Origin: Ensifer canadensis
GTDB taxonomy: Bacteria; Pseudomonadota; Alphaproteobacteria; Rhizobiales; Rhizobiaceae
Reading direction: 5' to 3'
Assembly (NCBI RefSeq): GCF_017488845.2
Contig: NZ_CP083370.1
Span: 372,001-436,000 of the forward strand
Length of the DNA stretch: 64,000 nt
The notes under the pieces were generated by a model. The model did no database searches. It was given only the letters and a program-made list of their open reading frames with translations, and had not been told where the DNA came from. Position numbers and translations under genes: made by a program. Below are positions 26,777 to 37,356 of this stretch, piece by piece (position 1 is the first letter of the stretch; each line of letters begins with the position of its first letter).

Positions 26777-26801
26777 GGAACCATTCGCCAGTCCGCACGT
26801 T
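26777..26801 (+). promoter_or_regulatory. EcfG/RpoE2-type promoter
   Basis: GGAAC and CGTT are separated by 16 nt, matching the general-stress sigma consensus of alphaproteobacteria (GGAAC-N16/17-CGTT). It lies 37 nt upstream of a small membrane protein start. Confidence 0.7.
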
Positions 26802-26837
26802 TACCTGTGGTTCCATAAAAAAACGGGAGGGCTGTCG

Positions 26838-27008
26838 ATGCTCTACTGGCTACCGCGGGTCTGCGTGGTTGCTTTTGCAGGTCTGTTGATCGGTTTTGGG
26901 TTCATCCCGCATACAGCCGTCGGCGTGGCGCACACATTGCTCATCATCGTCCTCGGCCTGGGGCTTCTGTCGCTGACCCTGCATGTGTTTCCGCCTGAAC
27001 GGCACTGA
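26838..27008 (+). CDS. Small membrane protein, 56 residues
   Basis: It starts MLYWLPRVCVV and has two hydrophobic helices (about 5-24 and 28-48) ending HVFPPERH. GGGAGG lies 7 nt before ATG 26838, and an EcfG-type promoter lies just upstream. I do not recognise a family beyond small stress-induced membrane proteins of rhizobia. The promoter argues that it is a real stress-regulated gene. Confidence 0.65.
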   Translation: MLYWLPRVCVVAFAGLLIGFGFIPHTAVGVAHTLLIIVLGLGLLSLTLHVFPPERH

Positions 27009-27021
27009 GTGATCCGGTCCG

Positions 27022-27179
27022 CAATTCAAAGTGCTACAGCGACCTTTGCGCGTCTAATAAGACGCGCGGCGCTGTAGAGCGTTTCCAGTTTGGACGGAGC
27101 CGCAGACGCACTCTATCTCTTTCCTTTTACGTATTTCCTGACGGAAAACCGTTTCGCACTTTTCCTCGAAAATGCTCTA
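27022..27179 (+). repeat. Compound repeat: half RIME1 fused to second-family mosaic element
   Basis: ATTCAAAGTGCTACAGCGACC...GGCGCTGTA (the right half of RIME1, 27022-27076) runs without a gap into GAGCGTTTCCAGTTTGGACGG...GAAAATGCTC (27077-27179). Confidence 0.82.
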
Positions 27180-27215
27180 GGCGTGACGCATGACAAACAA
27201 CGGCGAGGGACGGCA

Positions 27216-28346
27216 TTGGACACATCCGGGCACACGGCTGCTTACTACAAGCTGAAGCGCATCGCCGAGGAGGAAAAGGCCTCGGTCGAGGCGGCACTTC
27301 CCGCCGAGCCGAAGCGGGACGGCATCGACCTGATGGTGGCCTGGAGCATCATCGGCCTCTTCGTGATCGCCGGCTCAGCCGCCGTCTACTCGATGGAAAC
27401 GATCCTGATGCCGATCACGCTCGCCGTCGTCGTCGGCATCGTGCTCGGACGCGCGGCCGACAGCCTGGCAAAGTTCGGCCTGCCGCCGATCATGGGTGGG
27501 CTGCTGCTGGCACTGTTCTTCGTGCTTGGGCTCGCCTCGGTGGTCAGCGCCCTGCTCGGACCAATGACGGACTTGGCGCAAAAGGCACCGGCCCTGGCGG
27601 AGGGGGTCGTCGAACGTGTGTTACCCTTCATCGAGCGTTTCGAATGGCTGCGCCTGGCGGTGGCGCGAGGAACCGGCAACGGAGCCCTTGCCGACACCGT
27701 CATGAAGAACGCTGGTCCGGTTCTCGGCGTTGTCGCCGCCGGGCTGACGCCGGCCCTGGTCCAGACGCTGATTTTCCTTGCAGCACTCGGGCTCTTCCTG
27801 CTGGGTCGCCTGCATCTGCGCAGGACCATCATCCTTGCCTTCAACAGCCGGGAGCGACGTCTGAGCACGATCCGGATCATGAACGCGATCGAAACCGCAC
27901 TGGCGCAGTATTTTTCGATCGCGAGCCTAATCTATCTGGCGCTCGGCGTCGTCACCATGCTCATCGCGCTGGTCGGCGGCCTGGCCATGCCACCGCTCTG
28001 GGGGTTGTTTGCCTTCGTCTCCAGCTTCATACCCTATCTCGGCGTGACCATGATGACGCTGGCCCTGCTCGTCGGCGGGCTGATGACGCACGAAGCCATC
28101 CTCCTGGCGCTGGCGCCGGCGGCCGTCTTTTTCGTCGTGCATCTGGTCATGGAAAATCTGGTGATCCCGTCGATCCTGGGCAACAGGCTCGAAGTCAACC
28201 CGTTCCTCGTCTTCGTCGCCATCATCTTCTGGACATGGATGTGGGGCGCGGTCGGCGCGATGCTGGCGCTGCCGTTGTCGCTGATCGCCATGACGATCTT
28301 CGAGGAGGTGCGCGAGCAGCAGCCGGAACGGCAGCTGCCGGCCTAA
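27216..28346 (+). CDS. AI-2E family (YdiK/PerM-like) transporter
   Basis: This protein of about 376 residues has a cytoplasmic N-terminus and about eight hydrophobic helices, with family motifs around LGVVTMLIALVGGLAMPPLWG and VIPSILGNRLEVNPFLVFV. Members export small molecules or ions; the name AI-2E comes from a debated role in autoinducer-2 export. I place the start at TTG 27216 because GAGGGA precedes it by 5 nt. The in-frame sequence further upstream is the mosaic repeat and so is unlikely to be coding. Confidence 0.8.
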   Translation: MDTSGHTAAYYKLKRIAEEEKASVEAALPAEPKRDGIDLMVAWSIIGLFVIAGSAAVYSMETILMPITLAVVVGIVLGRAADSLAKFGLPPIMGGLLLALFFVLGLASVVSALLGPMTDLAQKAPALAEGVVERVLPFIERFEWLRLAVARGTGNGALADTVMKNAGPVLGVVAAGLTPALVQTLIFLAALGLFLLGRLHLRRTIILAFNSRERRLSTIRIMNAIETALAQYFSIASLIYLALGVVTMLIALVGGLAMPPLWGLFAFVSSFIPYLGVTMMTLALLVGGLMTHEAILLALAPAAVFFVVHLVMENLVIPSILGNRLEVNPFLVFVAIIFWTWMWGAVGAMLALPLSLIAMTIFEEVREQQPERQLPA

Positions 28347-28357
28347 GGCGTGTGCGC

Positions 28358-29155
28358 TTATCCGCGTGTCGAGCGGGCGTGTTCGTCGAAGAACAGGGCC
28401 TGGCTGATCAGCGCCTTGACCATGTCCGGGTTGAACGGCTTGGTCACGAGGAAGGCGGGCTCCGGCCGCTTGCCTGTCAGCAGCCGCTCGGGGAAGGCGG
28501 TGATGAAGATCACCGGTACCGCCGCATCCTTCAGGATCTCGTTGACCGCGTCGATACCGGAGCTGCCGTCGGCCAGCTGTATGTCGGCGAGAACCATCTT
28601 CGGCGCCGTCTTGCGGTAAAGATCCAGCGCTTCCTTATGCGTGCGGGCAATGCCGGTCACGCGATGGCCGAGGCTCGTCACCATATCTTCGATATCGAGC
28701 GCAATCAGCGGCTCATCCTCGATGATCAGGACTTCGGTTGCCACCTGGCGCGAAATGTCTTCCGAGGCCACCGTCAGCAGCTTGGAAAACGCCGCCTGGC
28801 TCTGCCCCATGATCTCGGCGGCATCGGCAATCGAGAAACCTTCGACCGAAACGAGCAGAAAGGCCTGCCGTGCCGCGGGCGCGATCAGCGAAAGATTGGC
28901 GGCAGCCTGCTGTTCCCAGGCGAATGGAGAGACGTTCTCCGTCCGGTCGACGGAGACTTTCTCGAACAGCGAGCAGAACAGCTTGTAGAGGGAAATGCGG
29001 TCGTTGGAACCCTCCGGGAAAAGGCTGATGTCCTCGATCAATGCTTCCAGAATTGCAGCCACATAACCGTCTCCGGCCGCCTGCGAACCGGTCACGGCGC
29101 GGGAGTAACGGCGGAGAAAGGGAAGGTGTGGTGCAATACGGGTCGAAAGTGACAT
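28358..29155 (-). CDS. rsiB2: PhyR/RsiB-type general stress response regulator
   Basis: This 265-residue protein has a sigma-factor-like N-terminal half (about 1-125; sigma-2-like then sigma-4-like, AARQAFLLVSVEGFSIADAA) and a C-terminal receiver domain (VLIIEDEPLIALDIEDMV, phosphoacceptor Asp in VLADIQLADGS, Lys in VTKPFNPD). When phosphorylated, PhyR proteins bind NepR and release the sigma factor EcfG/RpoE2. ATG 29155 has AAGGAAG upstream. It is divergent from a nepR-type gene. By position it corresponds to S. meliloti rsiB2 as I remember it; rpoE2 itself is not in this window. Confidence 0.88.
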   Translation of the reverse strand: MSLSTRIAPHLPFLRRYSRAVTGSQAAGDGYVAAILEALIEDISLFPEGSNDRISLYKLFCSLFEKVSVDRTENVSPFAWEQQAAANLSLIAPAARQAFLLVSVEGFSIADAAEIMGQSQAAFSKLLTVASEDISRQVATEVLIIEDEPLIALDIEDMVTSLGHRVTGIARTHKEALDLYRKTAPKMVLADIQLADGSSGIDAVNEILKDAAVPVIFITAFPERLLTGKRPEPAFLVTKPFNPDMVKALISQALFFDEHARSTRG

Positions 29156-29319
29156 CAAGTACTTCCTTGGGTCTGATGTGATTCGCTTGTTTTCTGAGGA
29201 CAATGAGCATCCTGCGAAAGACGTGAATGTTTTGAACACGTTTTTCGGCCTATGGGAAGCTGGCAACAGCGATGCGTGCTCGAGGTGTTTCGAGCGCTGT
29301 CTGGCTTAGGGGTTGTGGG

Positions 29320-29544
29320 ATGGAGCATCCTGTGGACGAGCGTGGCGTAGGGGAAGAGGAAACGGCGAAGGCTGCGAGAGGCTCAGATCCGAACGGCTTG
29401 ATCGGCTCGAAGCTGAAGGCGCTCTACCGCGCGATCGAGCAGGAGCCGGTGCCTGACCTTTTCATCGACCTTCTGCAAAAGCTGGATGACGCCGAGGCGC
29501 TTGCAGCGCCGCGCGTCAAACAGGACGCACAAACGACGCGGTAA
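29320..29544 (+). CDS. rsiA2: NepR-type anti-sigma factor
   Basis: This 74-residue protein has the NepR helix pair IGSKLKALYRAIEQEPVPDL...LLQKLDDAE (about 30-58). NepR proteins hold the general-stress sigma factor inactive until PhyR captures them. ATG 29320 with AGGGG upstream is preferred to an earlier in-frame ATG. The last 13 or so residues and the stop codon are encoded by a degraded RIME element, so the tail is a recent addition. The gene is divergent from the PhyR-type gene, with 164 nt between starts. Confidence 0.85.
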   Translation: MEHPVDERGVGEEETAKAARGSDPNGLIGSKLKALYRAIEQEPVPDLFIDLLQKLDDAEALAAPRVKQDAQTTR

Positions 29545-29574
29545 CACTTTAAACCTGCTGCAATTATGCAGTAG
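29503..29574 (-). repeat. Degraded RIME1-like element overlapping the nepR 3' end
   Basis: CAGCGCCGCGCGTCAAACAGGACGCACAAACGACGCGGTAACACTTTAAACCTGCTGC keeps the order of a reverse RIME1, but the final palindrome has collapsed to GCTGCAATTATGCAGTAG. The coding frame of the anti-sigma gene runs through its first 42 bases. Confidence 0.7.
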
Positions 29575-29667
29575 CCGTGCCGACGAAAAAGTTCTCCCCG
29601 AGTTGTAAGCGCAAGACATGAGAAACGGGCCGAAGCCCGCTTCCCTGGACCTCTTGACGTTTGCGCC

Positions 29668-29916
29668 TTAGCAGGCGGCCTCGTAGCGGCGGCCGTAGCG
29701 GTCGCGATAGATGCAACGTCCCGGCTCATTGGCATTGCCAACGAGCGCGCCGGCGACACCGCCGATGGCGGCACCGACCGCAGCACCTCTGACATTGCCC
29801 GTGGCTGCACCGCCGATGATTGCGCCGCCGGTCGCGCCGATCGCCGCGCCCTTCTCCGTTTGCGTGCATGCCGCCAAGGGGAGGATCAGGCTTGCTACGA
29901 TAAGTATCTTCTTCAT
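29668..29916 (-). CDS. Glycine-zipper lipoprotein
   Basis: This 82-residue protein has a lipoprotein signal peptide MKKILIVASLILPLAAC (lipobox LAAC, Cys17), then a glycine zipper of GAAIGATGGAIIGGAA type (about 23-61), and a short C-terminal CIYRDRYGRRYEAAC with two further cysteines. It is of the 17-kDa surface antigen/SlyB-like type and is probably outer-membrane anchored. The start overlaps the stop of a possible small upstream ORF by ATGA, and an EcfG-type promoter lies further upstream. Confidence 0.82.
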   Translation of the reverse strand: MKKILIVASLILPLAACTQTEKGAAIGATGGAIIGGAATGNVRGAAVGAAIGGVAGALVGNANEPGRCIYRDRYGRRYEAAC

Positions 29917-30038
29917 GACGCGTTCCTATCCGAGGTTTGCTTTGTTGAACATTGAAGGATGCATTCGGCCGAGACCGGTTGCGGGGGACTGATGACGAAC
30001 AGAATGACGACAATGAGGCCGTTCGCCAAAGCGAACAC
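29913..30038 (-). CDS. Possible small secreted or membrane peptide coupled to the lipoprotein gene
   Basis: A GTG-initiated frame of 41 residues reads VFALANGLIVVILFVISP then a cleavage-like PVSAEC and a short Cys-containing tail. It looks like a signal peptide plus a very short mature part. Its TGA overlaps the ATG of the lipoprotein gene. Upstream, a different frame with a better start (ATG 30126, AAGGGAGA before it, MSGADPTVASIPKVVK...) leads into the same region, so the true gene may be a 66-70 residue protein interrupted by one frameshift near 30062. An EcfG-type promoter at 30179-30204 would serve either form. Confidence 0.4.
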   Translation of the reverse strand: MFALANGLIVVILFVISPPQPVSAECILQCSTKQTSDRNAS

Positions 30039-30178
30039 GCCTTGCCGACGCCAGCCCTGACCCTGGCTTCGCGCCTATCTTAACCACCTTTGGAATGCTC
30101 GCAACGGTCGGATCCGCACCGCTCATCAATGTCTCCCTTGTGGTATCGCCACGGGTGCGGCGCTTGTTATTGCTGTGG

Positions 30179-30204
30179 AAACGACGATCACGCCGATTTG
30201 TTCC
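30179..30204 (-). promoter_or_regulatory. EcfG/RpoE2-type promoter
   Basis: On the minus strand GGAAC and CGTTT are separated by 16 nt. It would drive the small ORF and the glycine-zipper lipoprotein gene. Confidence 0.65.
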
Positions 30205-30383
30205 ATTGGGCAAATTCTTCCCAGACCTGTCGTCGATCCGGGGATTTGAAGGGCCGCCAGCGGCAATTGCTCCGACGTGCGCCTGCGACCTGTTTCGCCA
30301 GCCGCAACCATCGCGCTGGGCATGAAATACCGCGTCGAGTGCTCGCTCCAGCGAAGGCATCGACGAAATTTGATTCGGCCCAT

Positions 30384-30409
30384 GGAACTTCGCGCCGTTC
30401 ATAACCGTT
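30384..30409 (+). promoter_or_regulatory. EcfG/RpoE2-type promoter
   Basis: GGAAC and CGTT are separated by 17 nt, 35 nt upstream of the ATG at 30444. Confidence 0.7.
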
Positions 30410-30443
30410 TGCTGTTCACGTTTTTGATGGAAGGAGCATGCGG

Positions 30444-30767
30444 ATGGAACATATCGCTGCCATCATGGTCCTCGTCGGTTGCATGCAGGGCGACGCCGCC
30501 TGCCGTGAAGTCCCGACACCGGTCGTCGGTTTTGAGACTGTCGAGGAATTTCATGAATTGCTTTCGCCGTCGATCGAGGAGGTCGGCAAGGCGTTCAAGA
30601 GCGCCTATGGCAAATGTGCCGAAGTCGATCCCGCCCTGTTTGTCGAGGATGCGACGATAGAATGGTGGATCACGCCTTCGCGTCAGCTTGAAGTCAATGT
30701 GATCGCTGACGACGGCACCTACGCTGTTGCTGCCCGCACGGACGACAAGCCGAAGTTCCGCAACTAA
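30444..30767 (+). CDS. Hypothetical secreted protein, 107 residues
   Basis: It begins MEHIAAIMVLVGCMQGDAAC. The short hydrophobic N-terminus may be a signal peptide, but it is unusually brief. The remaining sequence has VGFETVEEFHELLSPSIEEV and two further Cys. I do not recognise a named family. ATG 30444 is preferred to 30438 because AAGGAG at 30431-30436 is then 7 nt away. A clear EcfG-type promoter precedes it, so stress induction is expected. Confidence 0.65.
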   Translation: MEHIAAIMVLVGCMQGDAACREVPTPVVGFETVEEFHELLSPSIEEVGKAFKSAYGKCAEVDPALFVEDATIEWWITPSRQLEVNVIADDGTYAVAARTDDKPKFRN

Positions 30768-30803
30768 AGCATCTCCAGGAAAAGTGCGAAGCGATTCTCC
30801 GTC
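30768..30803. repeat. Fragment of second-family mosaic repeat
   Basis: AGCATCTCCAGGAAAAGTGC and AAGCGATTCTCCGTC correspond to one arm of the repeat at 26006. It begins one base after the preceding stop codon. Confidence 0.55.
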
Positions 30804-30825
30804 GCCGCGCTGAAAGGATCAAGGC

Positions 30826-31023
30826 ATGAACTGGGACATCATTCAGGGCAAATGGGCGGAGTTGAAGGGCAAGGCTCAGATCGAATGGGGCAAGCTGACC
30901 AATGACGATCTCGATGTCATCGACGGGCGGCGCAAGGAACTTGCCGGCCGTATCCAGGCCCGCTACGGCATCGCCCGCGATGAAGCCGAACGCCAGATCG
31001 ACGACTGGGCTTCCCGCCACTGA
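30826..31023 (+). CDS. CsbD-family stress protein
   Basis: This 65-residue protein is MNWDIIQGKWAELKGKAQIE followed by WGKLTNDDLDVIDGRRKEL (family signature) and a charged helix. CsbD-like proteins are abundant general-stress proteins of unknown mechanism. GAAAGGATC precedes ATG 30826. No good EcfG promoter is visible in the 58-nt gap, so it may be co-transcribed with the gene at 30444, whose promoter is EcfG-type. Confidence 0.88.
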   Translation: MNWDIIQGKWAELKGKAQIEWGKLTNDDLDVIDGRRKELAGRIQARYGIARDEAERQIDDWASRH

Positions 31024-31049
31024 GAGGCGAACCCGACCGAGCCGAAAGG

Positions 31050-31100
31050 CCAAAAGCAAACGCCGCCGTGGTGATCGACCGTCGCGGCGTTTGCTTTTGG
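31050..31100 (+). terminator. Strong terminator hairpin after the CsbD gene
   Basis: A perfect 17-bp inverted repeat (CCAAAAGCAAACGCCGC at 31050-31066 and its complement at 31084-31100) is followed by TTTTTG. The A/T-rich ends make it usable in both directions. Confidence 0.88.
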
Positions 31101-31111
31101 TTTTTGAGCCC

Positions 31112-31216
31112 CCACAGCCCCGCGCGTCTTATTAGACGCGCAAGGGTCGCTGTAGCACTTTGAATTGCTGCATGTTTTTATCCTTAATCGAATAGGATTT
31201 AAGGAAACAGGCAGTA
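31112..31216 (-). repeat. RIME1-like element
   Basis: This complete reverse-orientation copy reads ACAGCCCCGCGCGTC...GACGCGC, GTCGCTGTAGCACTTTGAATTGC, then TGCATGTTTTTATCCTTAA...TTAAGGAAACAGGCAG. Confidence 0.88.
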
Positions 31217-31238
31217 GCGGAAGAACGGCGCTGCGCAA

Positions 31239-31433
31239 TTATCTCTTCGGTTTCGGCTCGGTCTTTTTCAGTTTTTCGAGAAGATTGTTTAAGTTCTGGC
31301 TCGGTTTGTCTGTGTTGTGCGCGTAGAGATCACGCATCGTTCTACCGATGTGAAGATTACTGTCCGGCGTTTCGGCGTTTCGGTGCGCTGTTTCAGCTGC
31401 GGACTTCCAAATATGTGACATTGGCATCTTCAT
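31239..31433 (-). CDS. Second NepR-like small protein
   Basis: This 64-residue, Lys-rich and Asn-rich protein aligns by eye to the neighbouring NepR over the whole sigma-binding helix pair. IGRTMRDLYAHNTDKP and IGSKLKALYRAIEQEP match in spacing and hydrophobic pattern, followed by NNLLEKLK versus IDLLQKLD. The PVPD motif is replaced by PSQN with one residue fewer. No strong RBS is seen; GCGGG lies upstream of ATG 31433. A near-perfect EcfG-type promoter 30 nt upstream supports expression. It could be a diverged anti-sigma factor, a PhyR decoy or a relic. Confidence 0.6.
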   Translation of the reverse strand: MKMPMSHIWKSAAETAHRNAETPDSNLHIGRTMRDLYAHNTDKPSQNLNNLLEKLKKTEPKPKR

Positions 31434-31462
31434 GTCGAACCCGCTTCATTCCTTGAGGGAAC

Positions 31463-31487
31463 AACGTAAGACTATCACGAAGGTTCC
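31463..31487 (-). promoter_or_regulatory. EcfG/RpoE2-type promoter of the NepR-like gene
   Basis: On the minus strand GGAAC, 16 nt, then CGTTG, ending 30 nt upstream of the start codon. A NepR-like gene under the sigma factor it may inhibit would form a negative feedback loop. Confidence 0.7.
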
Positions 31488-31603
31488 TGGCGAATTTCGC
31501 CTCGGCTGTGCCAAATCGAGACTGTTTTGGCGATCATGGTTAACAGATGGTTTCGAACCTCCGGGGCGGGATTGAAGATTTCATCGTTGCTTGCGTCGGT
31601 GCT

Positions 31604-31629
31604 GGAACAAAATAGGCGGTCATGACGTT
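31604..31629 (+). promoter_or_regulatory. EcfG/RpoE2-type promoter
   Basis: GGAAC, 17 nt, CGTTT, 34 nt upstream of the UPF0391 start. Confidence 0.75.
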
Positions 31630-31662
31630 TCATTTCCAGCGACGCATACAAGGAGATATCCT

Positions 31663-31827
31663 ATGCTTTACTACGCTCTCGTCTTTCTGGTAGTAGCAAT
31701 TATCGCAGGTGTACTTGGTTTTGGCGGTATTGCCGGTGCTTCCGCAGGTATTGCACAGATCCTGTTCTTCCTATTCCTCGCCTTCCTGGTGATCTCGCTG
31801 GTCGTGGGGCTCATGCGCAGAACCTGA
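31663..31827 (+). CDS. UPF0391/DUF1328 small membrane protein
   Basis: This 54-residue protein [20 protein letters not shown] then [16 protein letters not shown] is the usual YtjA/UPF0391 sequence, with two transmembrane helices in the inner membrane. The role is unknown, but members are often stress-induced. ATG 31663 has AAGGAGAT upstream, and an EcfG-type promoter precedes it. Confidence 0.88.
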
Positions 31828-31839
31828 TCCAGGCGCTGG

Positions 31840-31906
31840 TAACGCATTAAACCTGCTGCATAATTATCTGCTTAAATCGATTCAGCTTTAAGGATTTATG
31901 CAGTAG
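31840..31906 (-). repeat. Half RIME1-like element
   Basis: Only the TTTAAAC-linker and the CTGCATAATT...GGATTTATGCAG palindrome are present; the GCGCGTC palindrome is missing. It belongs to the same subtype as 3480, 49178 and 53257. Confidence 0.7.
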
Positions 31907-31916
31907 GAAATCAACA

Positions 31917-31948
31917 AGGGACGAATGTCGAAAGACTTCGTCCCTTTC
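31917..31948 (+). terminator. Intrinsic terminator
   Basis: GGGACGAA(T)GTC / GACTTCGTCCCTTTC forms a strong hairpin with a short T tail. Confidence 0.65.
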
Positions 31949-32046
31949 GCATGTCGCGATGCTCCGGTTACATCCCTTGCCCTCCCAGGTGTGCTTGGCT
32001 ATTCATGCCGAAACGGATCTGACGCGCACCAAGGAATGCGGAACAC

Positions 32047-32550
32047 ATGAAATCGCTGGAGCTCCTCGTAGAGCGGATCATTCTGTCCAGTCGCTGGCTG
32101 CTGGTCATTTTCTATCTCGGGCTTGTTGCAGCGTTGGCGCTCTACGGCATTTCGTTCATGTACAAGTTCCTGAAGATCGCCGGCATGGTCTTCGTCTACG
32201 ACGATGCCCAGATGATCCTGTCGATGCTCGGCCTGATCGATGCCGCCCTAGTGGCGAGCCTGATCGTCATGGTGATGATCTCAGGATACGAGAACTTCGT
32301 CAGCCGCTTCGACGAGGCTGATGCCGAGGTCTCCTTCCTCGGCAAGCTCGACGCCGGCAGCCTGAAGATCAAGGTCGCATCGTCGATCGTCGCGATCTCG
32401 TCCATCCATCTTCTGCAGATCTTCCTCAACACGCAGCAATATACCAGCCAGCAACTGATGTGGGCGACGATCATGCATCTCGCTTTCGTGGTTTCGGCGG
32501 TTCTGCTCGGTTATCTCGAGCAGATCATGAATGGGCTGAAGAGGAAGTAG
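32047..32550 (+). CDS. UPF0114 (YqhA-like) membrane protein
   Basis: This 167-residue protein has four predicted helices and the family pattern SSRWLLVIFYLGLVAALALY and YENFVSRFDEADAEVSFLGK. The UPF0114 family has no assigned function. It is monocistronic between a hairpin and the D-amino-acid dehydrogenase gene. The translation start is clear (KSLELLVERII), with an AAGGAATGCGG stretch upstream. Confidence 0.85.
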   Translation: MKSLELLVERIILSSRWLLVIFYLGLVAALALYGISFMYKFLKIAGMVFVYDDAQMILSMLGLIDAALVASLIVMVMISGYENFVSRFDEADAEVSFLGKLDAGSLKIKVASSIVAISSIHLLQIFLNTQQYTSQQLMWATIMHLAFVVSAVLLGYLEQIMNGLKRK

Positions 32551-32610
32551 CTTGGGCCGAGCGGCGTGCATCGCTGCTGATGGTCTTGATCGAGTAGCGG
32601 GGCACTGGAC

Positions 32611-33864
32611 ATGAAGACTGACGTAGTGGTTCTCGGCGCCGGCATCGTCGGCATATCGACCGCCATCCATCTGGCGCGGCGCGGCAAGTCGGTGGTGCTG
32701 CTTGATCGTCGCGGTGCGGGCGAAGAGACATCCTACGGCAATGCCGGCCTGATCCAGCGCGAGGGCGTGTTTCCCTACGGCTTCCCGCATGATTTCGGGG
32801 CATTGTTCCGCTACGCGCTGAACAACACCATCGACGCGCACTACCATATTCGCGCGCTGCCGGGGCTGGTGCCGTTCCTGGCGCGCTACTGGTGGCATTC
32901 CGGCTTCACCCAGCACCAGCGCATCGCCAACATGTATGCGCCGCTGATCGAAAATTCGATCGCCGAGCATGAGGATCTCATCAATGCATCCGGCGCGGGC
33001 GACCTGATCCGCAAGGACGGCTGGATGAAGGTCTTCCGCACCGAGAAGGAGCGCGACGCGGCCTACAAGGATGCCGAGAAGCTGTCGACCGGTTTCGGCG
33101 TCAATCATCAGAAACTCTCGACCAGCGAATTGAAGACCCTGGAGCCTTCGATCAGGGCCGATCTCGTCGGTGGCCTGCGTTGGAGCGACCCATGGTCGAT
33201 CCGCGATCCGCACAGCCTCAACAAGGCCTATCTCACCTATTTCCAGTCGCTCGGCGGCCGGCTGGTTTCCGGGGACGCGGCGACGGTGGAACACATTCTC
33301 GAAGGTCCGGGCTGGCGGGTCGCGACCCCGGAAGGGCCGCTCGAGGCGCATGAAGTCGTCGTCGCACTTGGTCCTTGGGCCGATACGGTCACGCGCAAGC
33401 TCGGCTACCATTTCCCGGTTGCCGTCAAGCGCGGTTATCACATGCATTACGGCATGCAGGAGGGCGCCCAGCTCAACAATTGGGTACTGGATGCCGAGAA
33501 GGGCTATTTCCTGGCGCCGATGCTGCGCGGCATCCGCCTGACGACGGGGGCGGAATTTGCCTGGCGCGATGCGCCGAAGACGCCGGTTCAGCTCACCCGC
33601 GCCGAGCGTGTAGCGCGCGAGTTCTTCCCACTGGCCGAGCGCCGCGACGAAGAACCGTGGATGGGCGCTCGCCCGTGCACGCCTGACATGATGCCGATCA
33701 TCGGCAAGGCGCCGCGTCACCAGGGCCTGTGGTTCGCCTTCGGTCATGCCCATCACGGCATGACGCTCGGCCCGGTCACCGGCCGGGCGCTCGCCGAAGC
33801 CATGACCGGCGAGAAGACGGTGATCGACATCGCCCCCTATCGCCCGGAGCGCTTCTTCTCCTGA
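32611..33864 (+). CDS. FAD-dependent D-amino-acid dehydrogenase family protein
   Basis: This 417-residue DAO/DadA-like oxidoreductase has the FAD-binding Rossmann motif VVVLGAGIVGISTAIHLARRG at residues 5-25 (GxGxxG), a DRRGAGEETSYGNAGLIQ segment and a C-terminal GHAHHGMTLGPVTGR that completes the flavin site. DadA enzymes deaminate D-amino acids, passing electrons to the quinone pool; the exact substrate (D-Ala, hydroxyproline or other) cannot be told. It ends before a convergent terminator shared with the SDR gene. Confidence 0.85.
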   Translation: MKTDVVVLGAGIVGISTAIHLARRGKSVVLLDRRGAGEETSYGNAGLIQREGVFPYGFPHDFGALFRYALNNTIDAHYHIRALPGLVPFLARYWWHSGFTQHQRIANMYAPLIENSIAEHEDLINASGAGDLIRKDGWMKVFRTEKERDAAYKDAEKLSTGFGVNHQKLSTSELKTLEPSIRADLVGGLRWSDPWSIRDPHSLNKAYLTYFQSLGGRLVSGDAATVEHILEGPGWRVATPEGPLEAHEVVVALGPWADTVTRKLGYHFPVAVKRGYHMHYGMQEGAQLNNWVLDAEKGYFLAPMLRGIRLTTGAEFAWRDAPKTPVQLTRAERVAREFFPLAERRDEEPWMGARPCTPDMMPIIGKAPRHQGLWFAFGHAHHGMTLGPVTGRALAEAMTGEKTVIDIAPYRPERFFS

Positions 33865-33883
33865 TCGTTTATCCGATCGCCAA

Positions 33884-33914
33884 AAGGGGCCGGGAGCATC
33901 GCTTCCGGCCTCTT
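33884..33914. terminator. Bidirectional terminator between convergent genes
   Basis: AGGGGCCGG(G)AGC / GCTTCCGGCCTCTT forms a stem flanked by AAAA and TCTTCT, between the dehydrogenase and the SDR gene. Confidence 0.7.
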
Positions 33915-33931
33915 CTGCATTTGGTCGCCGG

Positions 33932-34672
33932 TCAGGCGTTCGTGCCGCCGTCGATGGTGAATTCGGCGCCGGTCACGCCCCGGCCTTCGGGCCCGGCAAG
34001 CCAGGCGACGAGGCTCGCCACCTCGCTCGCATCGTTGAACCGGGGGATTGCCATCAAGCCGCGTTGCGGATCCGCATGCGCGCCGTCCTGCGGATTCATG
34101 TCAGTATTGGTCGAGCCGGGATGGACGATGTTGACGGTGATGCTCTTCGGTCCGAGGTCACGCGCGACCGCCTTGGTAAAGCCGACGAGCGCTGACTTGC
34201 TGAGCGCATAGAGGCTGATGCCCGGAAAGGGAACGCGCTGCGCCAGATTGCTGCCGATCGAAATGATGCGTCCGCCTTCCGGCATATGTTTTGCCGCAGC
34301 GCTCGTGGCCAGTACCACCGCCTTCACATTGACATCGACCGTACGGTCGAAATCGTCCGCGGTCACGTCCGTAATGGCGGCTGCTTCATAAATGCCAGCA
34401 TTGTTGACCAGAATGTCGATGTGGCCGTGCCGCTCGACGACCGTCTGGACGGCGGTCTCCAACGCCTTTGCATCTCGATTGTCGGCGCGTACGGCGAGCG
34501 CCTTGCCGCCCGCGCGCTCGATTTCGGCGACCAGTGCATCGGCCTTTGCCTGCGACTGCCCGTAGGTGATGGCGACAATGGCGCCCTCACTTGCCAGCCG
34601 CCTGGCGATCGCCGCACCAATGCCGCGTCCGCCGCCTGTCACCAACGCGACCTTGTTTTTCAGATTCGACAC
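33932..34672 (-). CDS. Short-chain dehydrogenase/reductase
   Basis: This 246-residue classical SDR has the NAD(P)-binding TGGGRGIG, the NNAG motif, the catalytic Ser in SIGSN, and the YALSK catalytic Tyr/Lys pair, ending in FTIDGGTNA. It is similar to 3-oxoacyl-ACP-reductase-like proteins often paired with TetR repressors. The start is GTG 34672 (MSNLKNKVALVTG after initiation), with GGAG about 9 nt upstream. Upstream and in front of the divergent tetR gene are two copies of TGTA(G/T)TGATCGATACA, presumably TetR operators. Confidence 0.88.
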   Translation of the reverse strand: MSNLKNKVALVTGGGRGIGAAIARRLASEGAIVAITYGQSQAKADALVAEIERAGGKALAVRADNRDAKALETAVQTVVERHGHIDILVNNAGIYEAAAITDVTADDFDRTVDVNVKAVVLATSAAAKHMPEGGRIISIGSNLAQRVPFPGISLYALSKSALVGFTKAVARDLGPKSITVNIVHPGSTNTDMNPQDGAHADPQRGLMAIPRFNDASEVASLVAWLAGPEGRGVTGAEFTIDGGTNA

Positions 34673-34688
34673 GCTCTTGCTCCGTATT

Positions 34689-34704
34689 TGTAGTGATCGA
34701 TACA
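34689..34704. promoter_or_regulatory. TetR operator copy 1
   Basis: TGTAGTGATCGATACA is an imperfect palindrome, 41 nt from the copy at 34745 and in the same orientation. It lies next to the SDR start. Confidence 0.6.
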
Positions 34705-34744
34705 TATATACGCGGCGACTTGCCTCCCGCTGTCAAGTCATTTA

Positions 34745-34760
34745 TGTATTGATCGATACA
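34745..34760. promoter_or_regulatory. TetR operator copy 2
   Basis: TGTATTGATCGATACA is a palindrome with one mismatch, directly upstream of the tetR RBS AAAGGAG. Confidence 0.65.
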
Positions 34761-34778
34761 AAAAAAGGAGTTCATGCG

Positions 34779-35399
34779 ATGTCCAGCCGTGGCCGGCCGC
34801 GCAATTTTTCGCGTGAGGAAGCGCTGAGGAGCGCGATGGAAATCTTCTGGGACAAGGGTTTCGACAACACCTCGCTTGCCGATCTGACGCGGGTGATGGG
34901 GCTCAATCCGCCGAGCCTTTACGCTGCCTTCGGCAGCAAGGCGAAGCTTTTCCTCGAGGCCGTCGACCTCTATGGCCGGACCGATGGCGCCGGTATCTGG
35001 GAGTTTCTGGACAGCGCACCGACGGCAAAGGAGGCGGTGCACGACCTATTGCGCCGGTCGGCCGAGAATTTTACCCAATGGGCCGAGCCACGCGGCTGCA
35101 TGGTGGTGCTCTCTGCCCCGCAGATGGAGGGGGTCGACCCGGCGGTGTGCAACGGTCTGAAGGCGCGCCGGCTGGAAAAGCAGGCGGCATTAGAGCAGCG
35201 TCTCGAGCGTGGCGTGGCGGAAGGTGATCTGCCCGCGGGAACGGCCTGCGACGACATCGCCGCCTATGTCACGTCGATCCAGCATGGAATGTCGATCCAC
35301 GCCCGCGACGGAGCCTCGCGTCAGACCCTGATGGCAATCGCCGATTGTTGCGCGGCGGGGTGGGACGCGATGGTCAAGGCGTCATCGACGAGAGAATGA
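34779..35399 (+). CDS. TetR-family repressor
   Basis: This 206-residue protein begins MSSRGRPRNFSREEALRSAM with the TetR HTH (about 10-55; LADLTRVMGLNPPSLYAAFG) and a helical ligand domain. It is divergent from the SDR gene and shares the 106-bp intergenic region with two operator-like palindromes, so it most likely represses both itself and the SDR. ATG 34779 has AAAGGAG 8 nt upstream. Confidence 0.88.
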   Translation: MSSRGRPRNFSREEALRSAMEIFWDKGFDNTSLADLTRVMGLNPPSLYAAFGSKAKLFLEAVDLYGRTDGAGIWEFLDSAPTAKEAVHDLLRRSAENFTQWAEPRGCMVVLSAPQMEGVDPAVCNGLKARRLEKQAALEQRLERGVAEGDLPAGTACDDIAAYVTSIQHGMSIHARDGASRQTLMAIADCCAAGWDAMVKASSTRE

Positions 35400-35507
35400 C
35401 GAGATCTGCTGTCGATGACGGCCGATAAGCGTCGTCTCAATTGATCGCGGTCGCCCCAATGCGCGCGCTCTTCGGCACAACCACGTCCTGGTGCGATCAA
35501 CACTCGA

Positions 35508-35539
35508 CCTTTGCCGGAAGAACGCTCTTCCGGCAAAGG
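35508..35539. terminator. Bidirectional hairpin after tetR
   Basis: CCTTTGCCGGAAG / CTTCCGGCAAAGG is a perfect 13-bp inverted repeat with loop AACGCT, between the convergent tetR and the gene at 35561. Confidence 0.7.
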
Positions 35540-35560
35540 CAAGCCATTGCGACAATACCG

Positions 35561-35962
35561 TTACTGGGCCGGTGCCGGCTGTGTTGTCGTTCCGTTCGTT
35601 GCCGGCGGGGTCGTGCCCTGCTGCGGCGTCGTTTCCGGGGCGGTCATCGTTCCGCCGGAAGGTGCGGTGGTCGTATCGGCCGGCGGCGTGGCCGTCGTAT
35701 CCGTTGCTGGCGGTGTCGCCGTCTGCCCTGATGTCGACTGGTCGGTGGTGGCCGGTGGCGTTGCCGTCTCGGTCGTATCCCGCGTCAGTTCTGCCGGGAG
35801 CCAGGCGATCAAAGCGAGCACGAGGCCGGCAAGCAGGATGATGACGAGCGGCCAGCTGCTGCGCCCGGAGCGGACCGGTGCCGGATCTGTCGGCATGGGT
35901 GTCGGCTGACCTGTCACCGGGTCGATGAGCGGCTTTTCCTTGAACTCTTCACGTTGATTCAT
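35561..35962 (-). CDS. Thr/Pro-rich single-pass membrane protein
   Basis: This 133-residue protein has a cytoplasmic N-terminus MNQREEFKEKPLIDPVTG, one helix at about 34-54 (WPLVIILLAGLVLALIAWLP) and a Thr/Pro/Ala-rich tail (about 60-133; repeats of the ATPPATTD type). The tail would extend into the periplasm and looks disordered. No family is recognised beyond short rhizobial membrane proteins of this shape. An EcfG-type promoter lies 146 nt upstream. The tail codes for low-complexity sequence, so its length probably varies between strains. Confidence 0.7.
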   Translation of the reverse strand: MNQREEFKEKPLIDPVTGQPTPMPTDPAPVRSGRSSWPLVIILLAGLVLALIAWLPAELTRDTTETATPPATTDQSTSGQTATPPATDTTATPPADTTTAPSGGTMTAPETTPQQGTTPPATNGTTTQPAPAQ

Positions 35963-36107
35963 CGCGTTCACATCCTTTCTGGGCGTCCTCCGGCCTACGG
36001 GTCTTGCCGGCCGGAACGGCCTCGGCAAAGGCAGAGGACCGGGTTGTGCGGTTGCAAACTAACGTTGCGAACCTCGCATGCTCGACTGGACGCGCTCTGC
36101 AACAGGA

Positions 36108-36132
36108 AACGCGCGAAAACTTGCAATGTTCC
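36108..36132 (-). promoter_or_regulatory. EcfG/RpoE2-type promoter
   Basis: On the minus strand GGAAC, 16 nt, CGTTT. It would drive the Thr/Pro-rich membrane protein gene with a leader of about 140 nt. Confidence 0.6.
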
Positions 36133-36216: not shown

Positions 36217-37356
36217 ATGACGCTTGAGGCATACCGAAGCGGAACCTTTGTCGGGCGCGTCTGGCGATCTGATATTGACGGGCCGGCGCTCGTGACCGTC
36301 AGGGACGGCGCGATTGTCGACATCACCTCGAAAATGGCGCCCACCATGCGCGATCTGTTGGAGCTTCCCGACCCGGTTGCCCACATCCGTCAGCTCGATG
36401 GCGAACGTCTCGCGTCGGTGACCGACGTACTCACGGGGGAGGGCAAGATCTCGACCCTTCGCCTGCTTGCGCCCTGTGACCTCCAGGCCGTGAAGGCCTG
36501 TGGCGTCACCTTTGCGCGCTCGATGATCGAACGCGTCATCGAAGAGCGGGCGGCCGGCGATGCCGCCCGCGCCGAGGCGATCCGCACACGCGTCACTGCC
36601 GTCATCGGCGACAGCCTGCGAAACCTTAAGGCCGGCTCACCGGAGGCAGCCCGTGTCAAGGCCGCGCTGATCGAGGAGGGCGTCTGGTCGCAATATCTGG
36701 AAGTCGGCATCGGTCCGGATGCGGAAGTTTTTACCAAGGCACAGGTGTTGTCATCGGTCGGTTCGGGTGCCGATGTCGGCCTCCACCCGATTTCGCGCTG
36801 GAACAATCCGGAACCGGAAATCGTGCTGGCCGTTGCCTCTGACGGCGCCGTCAAGGGCGCGGCGCTCGGCAATGACGTCAACCTGCGCGATGTCGAGGGC
36901 CGGTCCGCTCTGCTTCTCGGCAAGGCGAAGGACAATAATGCCTCCTGTGCGATCGGCCCGTTCATCCGCCTGTTCGACGAGACCTACACGGTCGATCATG
37001 TGCGCAGGGCCGAACTCGAGCTGCTGGTCGAAGGCGCCGATGGCTACCGCCTGAAGGGAATGAGCAGCATGGCGGAGATCAGTCGTGACCCGCTCGACCT
37101 CGTCGCCCAGACGATCGGGCCACACCATCAATATCCCGATGGGTTGATGCTGTTCATGGGCACGTTGTTTGCCCCGGTCGAAGACCGCGACGAGAAGGGG
37201 CAGGGCTTCACCCACAGGATCGGCGATTTGGTGACGATTTCAAATGCTGAACTTGGTAGCCTGACCAACGTGGTGCGCCTGTCGACGGATTGCCCGCCCT
37301 GGACGTTCGGCATGGCCGCGCTGATGCGCAATCTCGCCAGCCGTGGTCTGATTTAG
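36217..37356 (+). CDS. Fumarylacetoacetate-hydrolase-family protein
   Basis: This 379-residue protein has a C-terminal FAH-fold domain (about 140-375) with the EPE metal triad region NNPEPEIVLAV and GRSALLLGKAKDNNASCAIGP. Members hydrolyse or decarboxylate 2-oxo acids or act as dehydratases on sugar acids. The N-terminal domain resembles that of sugar-acid dehydratases or fumarylacetoacetases, so substrate is uncertain. ATG 36217 has GGGGGAGCG upstream; about 70 in-frame residues further upstream lack conservation. Confidence 0.82.
   Translation: MTLEAYRSGTFVGRVWRSDIDGPALVTVRDGAIVDITSKMAPTMRDLLELPDPVAHIRQLDGERLASVTDVLTGEGKISTLRLLAPCDLQAVKACGVTFARSMIERVIEERAAGDAARAEAIRTRVTAVIGDSLRNLKAGSPEAARVKAALIEEGVWSQYLEVGIGPDAEVFTKAQVLSSVGSGADVGLHPISRWNNPEPEIVLAVASDGAVKGAALGNDVNLRDVEGRSALLLGKAKDNNASCAIGPFIRLFDETYTVDHVRRAELELLVEGADGYRLKGMSSMAEISRDPLDLVAQTIGPHHQYPDGLMLFMGTLFAPVEDRDEKGQGFTHRIGDLVTISNAELGSLTNVVRLSTDCPPWTFGMAALMRNLASRGLI

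Follow-up and report, generated by a model that had tools for sequence, protein, structure and literature searches.

Conserved EcfG-type promoters and a candidate NepR-derived feedback regulator around a second PhyR/NepR pair in Ensifer canadensis

What does a second PhyR/NepR stress switch do in a genome that already has one, when no sigma factor gene stands beside it? The question is raised by a 64,000-nucleotide (nt) stretch of the Ensifer canadensis genome (contig NZ_CP083370.1, positions 372,001 to 436,000; hereafter the window, whose coordinates are used throughout), in which such a pair, phyR2 and nepR2, lies among several matches to GGAAC-N16/17-CGTT, the consensus of the alphaproteobacterial general-stress sigma factor EcfG/RpoE2 (ECF15). 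Conservation marks 26.7-36.2 kb as a general-stress locus of the Rhizobiaceae, with six EcfG/RpoE2-type promoters placed around the sigma-less pair. A reading of the bare sequence (the sequence-only reading) had proposed such a locus, and both the conservation of the six sites and the Pfam and NCBIfam domains of the pair bear it out. One of the promoters precedes h64, a small gene whose 64-amino-acid (aa) product is identified by profile comparison as a strongly diverged NepR homologue and is a candidate feedback regulator. The features on which the argument turns are listed here, with counts of relatives keeping the site and its rank among control patterns, both explained below.

26777..26801, + strand: P1, EcfG-type promoter of a 56-aa membrane protein gene; exact match, 21/21, first of 551
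28358..29155, - strand: phyR2, RsiB2-type PhyR, sigma-like domain plus receiver; without EcfG-type promoter
29320..29544, + strand: nepR2, RsiA2-type NepR anti-sigma factor (Pfam NepR 5.5e-12); without EcfG-type promoter
30180..30204, - strand: P2, EcfG-type promoter by conservation, now fronting the glycine-zipper lipoprotein gene; first of 551
30384..30409, + strand: P3, EcfG-type promoter of a 109-aa protein gene and probably of csbD too; 19/22, first of 551
31239..31433, - strand: h64, 64-aa diverged NepR homologue by profile comparison (candidate EcfG-induced feedback regulator)
31463..31487, - strand: P4, EcfG-type promoter of h64; 21/21 and 16/16 (overlapping sets), first of 551
31604..31629, + strand: P5, EcfG-type promoter of a DUF1328 gene; 30/30, first of 551
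36108..36132, - strand: P6, EcfG-type promoter about 145 nt before a 133-aa protein gene; 18/18, first of 551

Six promoters and a sigma-less switch

The window holds seven exact matches to the consensus, at 26777(+), 30180-30204(-), 30384(+), 31463-31487(-), 31604(+), 36108-36132(-) and 36810(+), and none of 100 dinucleotide shuffles reached this number (mean 1.24, largest 6). The sequence-only reading had located the first six to within one base (its 30179 should read 30180) and had seen no further intergenic site; the match at 36810(+), which it had not listed, is inside FAH-like coding sequence. We rejected 36810(+) as a promoter: the pattern recurs in 0/12 orthologous FAH coding matches, and the match is a chance one. 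The statement of the sequence-only reading that a correctly oriented small gene follows each of the six is true of five; behind 30180(-) the first intact gene is that of the lipoprotein, which begins at 29916, about 260 nt on.

The genome-wide comparison of density that had been suggested as a check gave a divided answer. Across the 8.09-Mb genome the exact pattern was not enriched (197 matches against 194 for the reversed control), so counts by themselves are not taken as proof, whereas a tighter form with two A/T after GGAAC-N, GGAACNWWN13-14CGTT, which leaves out site 30384, was found 67 times against 20. Local clustering was clear: a fraction of 0.001 of 5000 Monte Carlo draws equalled six of 197 exact sites within 9.36 kb, and 0/5000 equalled five of 67 tighter-form sites, the span having been fixed post hoc but every draw having been scored on its densest window genome-wide. 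For the tighter pattern the block is the densest 9.36 kb in the genome, and other clusters exist. A weight matrix built from 117 sites of relatives placed all six above every other position of the window, but the lowest of them, 30384 (15.1 bits), was barely above the coding site 36810 (14.4 bits), and among 30 block shuffles the top score was 14.9 on average and 22.3 at most. The score alone is therefore undecisive, and conservation decides.

Relatives of phyR2 were sought in named genomes, and the best 80 of 561 loci encoding one were kept. Promoters were counted in the 31 that share the phyR2 gene order in part or whole, with 44 canonical loci and five rearranged, Ciceribacter-type loci set apart and counted separately for density. 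Orthologues were identified by tblastn (E <= 1e-3), and the 300 nt preceding each were searched for the exact motif. P1, P4, P5 and P6 were present wherever their genes were found in this way (21/21, 21/21, 30/30 and 18/18), P2 in 28/30 loci, rising to 30/30 within 400 nt, and P3 in 19/22, being missing in three loci that we label L065, L070 and L071. The other genes tested seldom had it (UPF0114 0/20, DAO 0/23, SDR 0/6, TetR 0/5, FAH 0/12, DUF1508 0/2, csbD 1/18, AI-2E transporter 3/23, L-PSP 1/28), and the reversed pattern appeared in 4/30 cases for the DUF1328 gene and in none for all others. Across relatives the GGAAC and CGTT boxes are kept while the spacers drift, and when gapped 5+4 patterns, 551 in all, were ranked by conservation without the two closest strains (L043 and L044), the motif came first in all six regions. 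By this conservation the six sites are functional EcfG/RpoE2-type promoter elements, and the consensus suggests EcfG as the sigma factor that uses them. The alternative, that a loose pattern has come together here by chance, would agree with the equal genome-wide counts of the exact and reversed forms; it is refuted by conservation in spite of drifting spacers, with the excess of the tighter form and the unconserved coding site on the same side, and we give it a negligible probability.

Site density was 3.06 per 10 kb across the 31 phyR2 loci (173 exact sites in 566 kb; reversed 15, or 0.26 per 10 kb), 1.94 in the 44 canonical loci (reversed 0.13) and 2.79 in the five Ciceribacter-type loci (reversed 0.19), so promoter-rich surroundings are general to phyR loci. 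In E. canadensis, by contrast, 19 kb of the canonical locus contain just the two divergent sites.

PhyR2 has the N-terminal sigma-like domain fused to a receiver that defines a PhyR (PhyR_sigma2 2.5e-24 and receiver 8.1e-12 in Pfam; 379.6 bits for NCBIfam PhyR), and NepR2, at 45.6 bits, stands above the curated Pfam NepR cut-off of 25.7. The sequence-only reading had thus named the proteins at 28358-29544 correctly, but they form a second, sigma-less paralogous pair. NepR is encoded twice in this genome, and genuine PhyR likewise twice; the canonical set, ecfG-nepR1-phyR1, is at C1:2.719-2.721 Mb. The eight other PhyR_sigma2 matches, which include the canonical EcfG, are other open reading frames (ORFs) with regions that resemble sigma factors, and a whole-genome profile search gave no PhyR_sigma2-type sigma-like match near phyR2/nepR2. 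A tree of PhyR sequences puts the window protein in a group of 32 rows (support 82/92) separate from PhyR1, the other 31 coming from loci that have no ecfG within 4 kb; for some of these loci, Shinella and L049 above all, the contig ends 2-5 kb from phyR and bounds the absence of ecfG. Three Hoeflea rows with ecfG neighbour the 32-row group, and five ecfG-less rows (L076, L079, L081, L088 and L090) fall elsewhere.

The switch had also been described as sitting among targets. The six promoters do surround it, but its own genes are without the motif (phyR2 0/31 and nepR2 0/31 in the upstream 300 nt), so that phyR2/nepR2 does not belong to its own target set and differs from the canonical arrangement, which this genome also shows. 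We infer that the pair corresponds to RsiA2/RsiB2 of Sinorhizobium meliloti, where rsiA2 is not RpoE2-dependent (PMC3616915, PMC4814048), which fits the promoter missing here.

Elsewhere in the genome, the next densest cluster (G000:C5:425351-428147; L141:7376-10561) has four tighter sites in 2.8 kb, while its exact sites number five in about 3.2 kb. A replicon region at G000:C4:77-187 kb (L143-L148) has numerous EcfG-type sites together with several ORFs that match PhyR_sigma2 (83427, 97839, 103897 and 167740), with one clear EcfG paralogue at 97.8 kb; it is a possible stress island.

A diverged NepR homologue beside phyR2

The product of 31239-31433(-) had been counted among uncharacterised envelope proteins, a description that profile comparison replaces with that of a strongly diverged NepR homologue. 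Pfam and NCBIfam name no family for it, and its C-terminal half is NepR-like (IGRTMRDLY...LNNLLEKLKKTE vs IGSKLKALY...FIDLLQKLDDAE). Comparison of h64 and NepR profiles by hhalign gave a probability of 90 and E 1.5e-6 with 22 and 17 rows, and 96 and E 2.6e-9 (score 44.2) with wider profiles of 91 and 75 rows, for which homologues had to measure 55-80 aa and NepR sequences 45-110 aa, identical copies being dropped. Control scores were far lower: 200 column-permuted NepR profiles averaged 9.2 (standard deviation 2.0, maximum 18.1), a reversed profile scored 12.9 and four unrelated families 6.9-8.5.

Searches in both directions agreed with this similarity, which extends over both NepR helices. 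In a set of 4741 ORFs, taken from the window and ten stretches of this genome, a NepR hidden Markov model (HMM) built without h64 found NepR1, NepR2 and then h64 (3.1e-4; next 0.61), and an h64 HMM built without NepR found NepR1 (0.0023), a two-piece match (0.017) and then NepR2 (0.017). Run on the best 80 of 561 loci (E <= 1e-3), the h64 HMM detected h64 in 23/31 phyR2 loci and only NepR in 8/49 others, and against the PDB the top two of its four matches were NepR, not significantly (E 0.52 and 0.74). The ratio of non-synonymous to synonymous substitution rates (dN/dS) was 0.06-0.27 in 15 close pairs, hand-picked of 231 possible, which marks h64 as a real gene under purifying selection.

The two NepR helices and an Ile/Leu/Leu-Leu/Leu/Glu skeleton are kept in h64, and a conserved N-terminal stretch (HIWK ... 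NLHIG.T.R.L) is added. Over 91 aligned rows, Leu51, Leu52 and Leu55 are invariant and E59 is present in 89; the equivalent of NepR L32 is hydrophobic (M/L/I) in all 91, that of R33 is R in 87 and that of Y36 is Y/F in 58, with Y in the window. Conservation is also among the highest at residues 26-30 and 32 (NLHIG, T). Helices are predicted at 6-20, 23-39 and 44-58 in h64 and at 24-41 and 46-62 in NepR2, the last two of h64 matching those of NepR2, and a low-confidence prediction thus gives h64 an extra N-terminal helix.

E. canadensis has one h64, a second profile match (E 0.7) being chance. The profile matches 18 of 247 Rhizobiaceae genomes, of which 17, E. canadensis included, are true carriers; the weakest match, in genome G100, was rejected because it is a canonical NepR beside ecfG. 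At all 16 other h64 loci an exact EcfG-type promoter lies 26-68 nt before the gene, a phyR with the same orientation is found 1.2-6.6 kb from it, and no ecfG occurs in the 16 kb retrieved; the DUF1328 gene is divergent from h64 in 15/16. Five of the 16 also belong to the 80-locus set, so the 21/21 and 16/16 counts for P4 overlap. With PhyR2 as query, the best 150 places in the 247 genomes fall in 133 genomes, 17 of which have two, and these are exactly the 17 with true h64, on a search that could miss genomes with a weaker second PhyR. By HMM, eight Shinella phyR2 loci (L062, L063, L065-L068, L070 and L071) have no h64, and they account for all the loci without it in the 23/31 recount; an earlier tblastn count was discarded, having missed L069 and L073. 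Shinella has a phyR2-type locus with several of its promoters, and no ecfG within the available contig stretch.

A proposed feedback brake and its alternatives

We put at roughly 0.6 the probability that the best joint explanation is a general-stress locus in which h64 serves as an EcfG-induced, negative-feedback antagonist of PhyR. Stress would lead to phosphorylation of PhyR1 and PhyR2, both of which would bind NepR1 and NepR2 and so free EcfG to switch on the six promoters. h64 would then accumulate and bind activated PhyR, PhyR2 foremost, which would release NepR and let EcfG be recaptured, making h64 a delayed brake. The remaining targets (two DUF1328-like proteins, the glycine-zipper lipoprotein, CsbD, the Cys-bearing 109-aa protein and the membrane-anchored Pro/Thr-rich protein) would be effectors of envelope and general stress. 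The role proposed for h64 draws on the vicinity of phyR2, the EcfG-type promoter, the kept helix residues and analogy with two proteins. Sphingomonas melonis Fr1 NepR2 is EcfG-regulated, binds PhyR, lowers the stress response and needs the residues matching NepR L32 and Y36 (PMC6599016); Methylobacterium extorquens AM1 META2_0735 binds PhyR, with no sigma binding seen in the account available, and its overexpression raises stress sensitivity (PMC4814048).

Several observations weigh against this explanation. The EPxP between the NepR helices, whose prolines P43 and P45 are invariant in 17 aligned NepR2 rows, is gone in h64, and the Y36 equivalent is replaced in 33/91 rows, by E, Q or H in 32 and by G in one. 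The aligned meliloti/fredii-type loci belong to these rows, and in them h64 may bind its partners differently or no longer at all. None of the h64 rows tested reaches the curated Pfam cut-off for NepR: in 22 rows NepR appears at E <= 1 in two (best 0.1), and in ten rows of the wider set in six (best 0.011). Families that look like chance matches outscore it in single rows (Spore_III_AB in four, best 0.0021; DarP in one, 0.0031). The AlphaFold model is weak (pLDDT 61, pTM 0.26), and a Foldseek search with it gave no match. For RsiA1 and RsiA2, the NepR proteins of S. meliloti, in vitro binding is on record both to RpoE2 and to RsiB (PMC4814048), and so the partner of h64 could be sigma rather than PhyR.

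This last point opens the way to h64 as an EcfG-induced anti-sigma factor proper, which would bind EcfG or an ECF15 paralogue directly in a simple negative loop. Canonical NepR binds sigma, as RsiA1 and RsiA2 do, and the genome has further PhyR_sigma2-matching ORFs (for example C4:97839, C1:2078753, C4:167740 and C1:2535042). We nevertheless think it unlikely: the EPxP is lost, h64 is near phyR and not near ecfG in 16/16 loci, and the two studied EcfG-linked, diverged NepRs bound PhyR, with sigma binding undetected, though possibly missed, in the available accounts (PMC6599016, PMC4814048). Less probable still is that h64, though derived from NepR, has left the partner switch, with its conserved N-terminal part in a new role, as one more stress-induced small protein. 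The strong conservation of NLHIG and T32 would suit this, as would a Y36 equivalent and an EPxP that are not kept; the three invariant leucines, the nearly invariant E59 and the fact that h64 has remained in the phyR locus would not.

The layout of the block could also be read as a positive-feedback device, in which leftward transcripts from P4 and P2 run through the lipoprotein gene and, antisense to nepR2, into phyR2. The three genes h64, lipoprotein and phyR2 are indeed on one strand in the loci that hold them, and in S. meliloti the 5' region of SMc00794 (rsiB2) went up on rpoE2 overexpression; its coding region did not rise (PMC3616915). After the lipoprotein gene, 7/30 relatives have no hairpin, 15/30 have one of the form ACGGGC..GCCCGTTT and eight have others, counts made with no shuffled control, and a near-identical copy of the common form is present in the window, though a consensus scan does not list it. 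This hairpin suggests that the lipoprotein transcript ends before nepR2, and we consider read-through as the purpose of the cluster very improbable.

An extension of the antagonist explanation, which we offer tentatively and with the odds well against it, is that h64 founds a separate regulator class that accompanies a second pair of this kind: as a decoy descended from NepR and equipped with a new N-terminal module, it would turn off PhyR2 selectively after stress. If so, the two PhyR branches would have different shut-off times.

The other genes of the block and known systems

The remaining features of the block are the following.

26838..27008, + strand: 56-aa hydrophobic protein with weak DUF1328-type likeness (NCBIfam PRK13682.1-3, E 2.8e-5)
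29620..29645, - strand: terminator-like hairpin GCGGGC-TTCG-GCCCGTTT, 3' of the lipoprotein gene
29668..29916, - strand: 82-aa glycine-zipper lipoprotein (Gly-zipper_Omp 1.6e-8, LPAM_1 lipoprotein site 8.3e-4)
29917..30179, - strand: long leader with a probable decayed DUF3309 gene; ORF intact in relatives
30438..30767, + strand: 109-aa protein with hydrophobic N terminus and cysteines kept in relatives; no family above cut-off
30826..31023, + strand: CsbD-family stress protein (Pfam CsbD 7.4e-17)
31663..31827, + strand: DUF1328 small membrane protein (Pfam DUF1328 6.8e-15)
35561..35962, - strand: 133-aa protein with, by sequence, one hydrophobic stretch and a Pro/Thr-rich tail; no Pfam/NCBIfam family

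For the 56-aa protein the PRK13682.1-3 match is 24 bits against a cut-off of 71, and no Pfam family is above cut-off. We rejected an intact gene directly after 30180(-), as the 66-aa frame there was found by tblastn in only 3/80 loci and other frames are open elsewhere. Shinella and several Rhizobium-group loci have an intact DUF3309 gene in the leader after P2 (Pfam DUF3309 3.9e-23 for the L077 copy), and the window leader probably holds its decayed remains. Shuffles scored as well as the remnant in 1/200 cases for the window, 0/200 for L043, L044 and L045, 5/200 for L046 and 2/200 for L048, which supports a relic in the adhaerens-like group; it was unsupported in the other Ensifer loci tested (L050, L051, L052, L055 and L059; 13 to 175/200).

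With no motif of its own in 17/18 relatives, csbD probably rides with the transcript of the 109-aa gene from P3. The 109-aa protein itself (30438-30767) has Phe in this strain where 22/22 relatives have Cys (EEF vs EEC/DEC/EDC), so that a conserved cysteine has been lost here. A palindromic repeat (GCGCGTCTTATTAGACGCGC and inverse) has intergenic copies at 27049-27070 and 31120-31145, and a second repeat (TTAAACCTGCTGCA...ATTAT) at 29545-29575 and 31840-31868. In Devosia, Brucella-group and Hoeflea genomes a DUF1328 gene is found near canonical phyR/ecfG (L072, L074, L075, L091 and other canonical loci), and this neighbourhood with phyR may be ancestral. Transcripts of the lipoprotein gene or of h64 could explain the rpoE2-dependent array signal seen upstream of S. 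meliloti rsiB2, which the coding region does not follow (PMC3616915).

Within the open-access literature, searched mostly as titles and abstracts and with the supplementary regulon tables of S. meliloti outside its scope, we found no description of h64 or of the promoter cluster; the RpoE2 dependence of h64 may already be contained in those tables. The standard domain model misses diverged NepR proteins such as this one, and alphaproteobacterial anti-sigma counts may be too low as a result.

Two described proteins resemble h64 in regulation. S. melonis Fr1 NepR2 (#1448) is likewise a diverged NepR-like member of the EcfG regulon, one that BLAST did not resolve there (PMC6599016), but it is next to ecfG, whereas h64 is next to phyR and away from ecfG. 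MexAM1_META2p0735 is also a NepR homologue with an EcfG-type promoter (PMC4814048); it is of a different lineage and is reported to keep most PhyR-contacting residues, unlike h64 with its missing EPxP. An unannotated RsiA-like ORF opposite SMb21687 of S. meliloti is another overlooked NepR-like frame in a rhizobial stress network, although it lies downstream of rpoE5 and h64 has its own promoter beside phyR2. All three are likened to h64 from their published descriptions and not by sequence.

The closest counterpart of the locus as a whole is RsiA2/RsiB2 (SMc04884/SMc00794) of S. meliloti, a close relative that likewise has a second NepR/PhyR pair without a sigma gene. We equate it with the window pair through near-consecutive tags with the DUF1328 gene SMc00796 and the syntenic S. 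medicae locus L051, not through an alignment of the S. meliloti genome. The difference is that the accessible parts of its description neither treat the promoters as one cluster nor mention a further protein of NepR type next to the pair, and rsiA1/rsiA2 mutants may have been interpreted without this third player. What benefit S. meliloti draws from the extra pair is said to be unknown (PMC4814048); a third, probably stress-induced NepR-type protein beside it offers a possible answer, namely that the second pair comes with a delayed brake built in.

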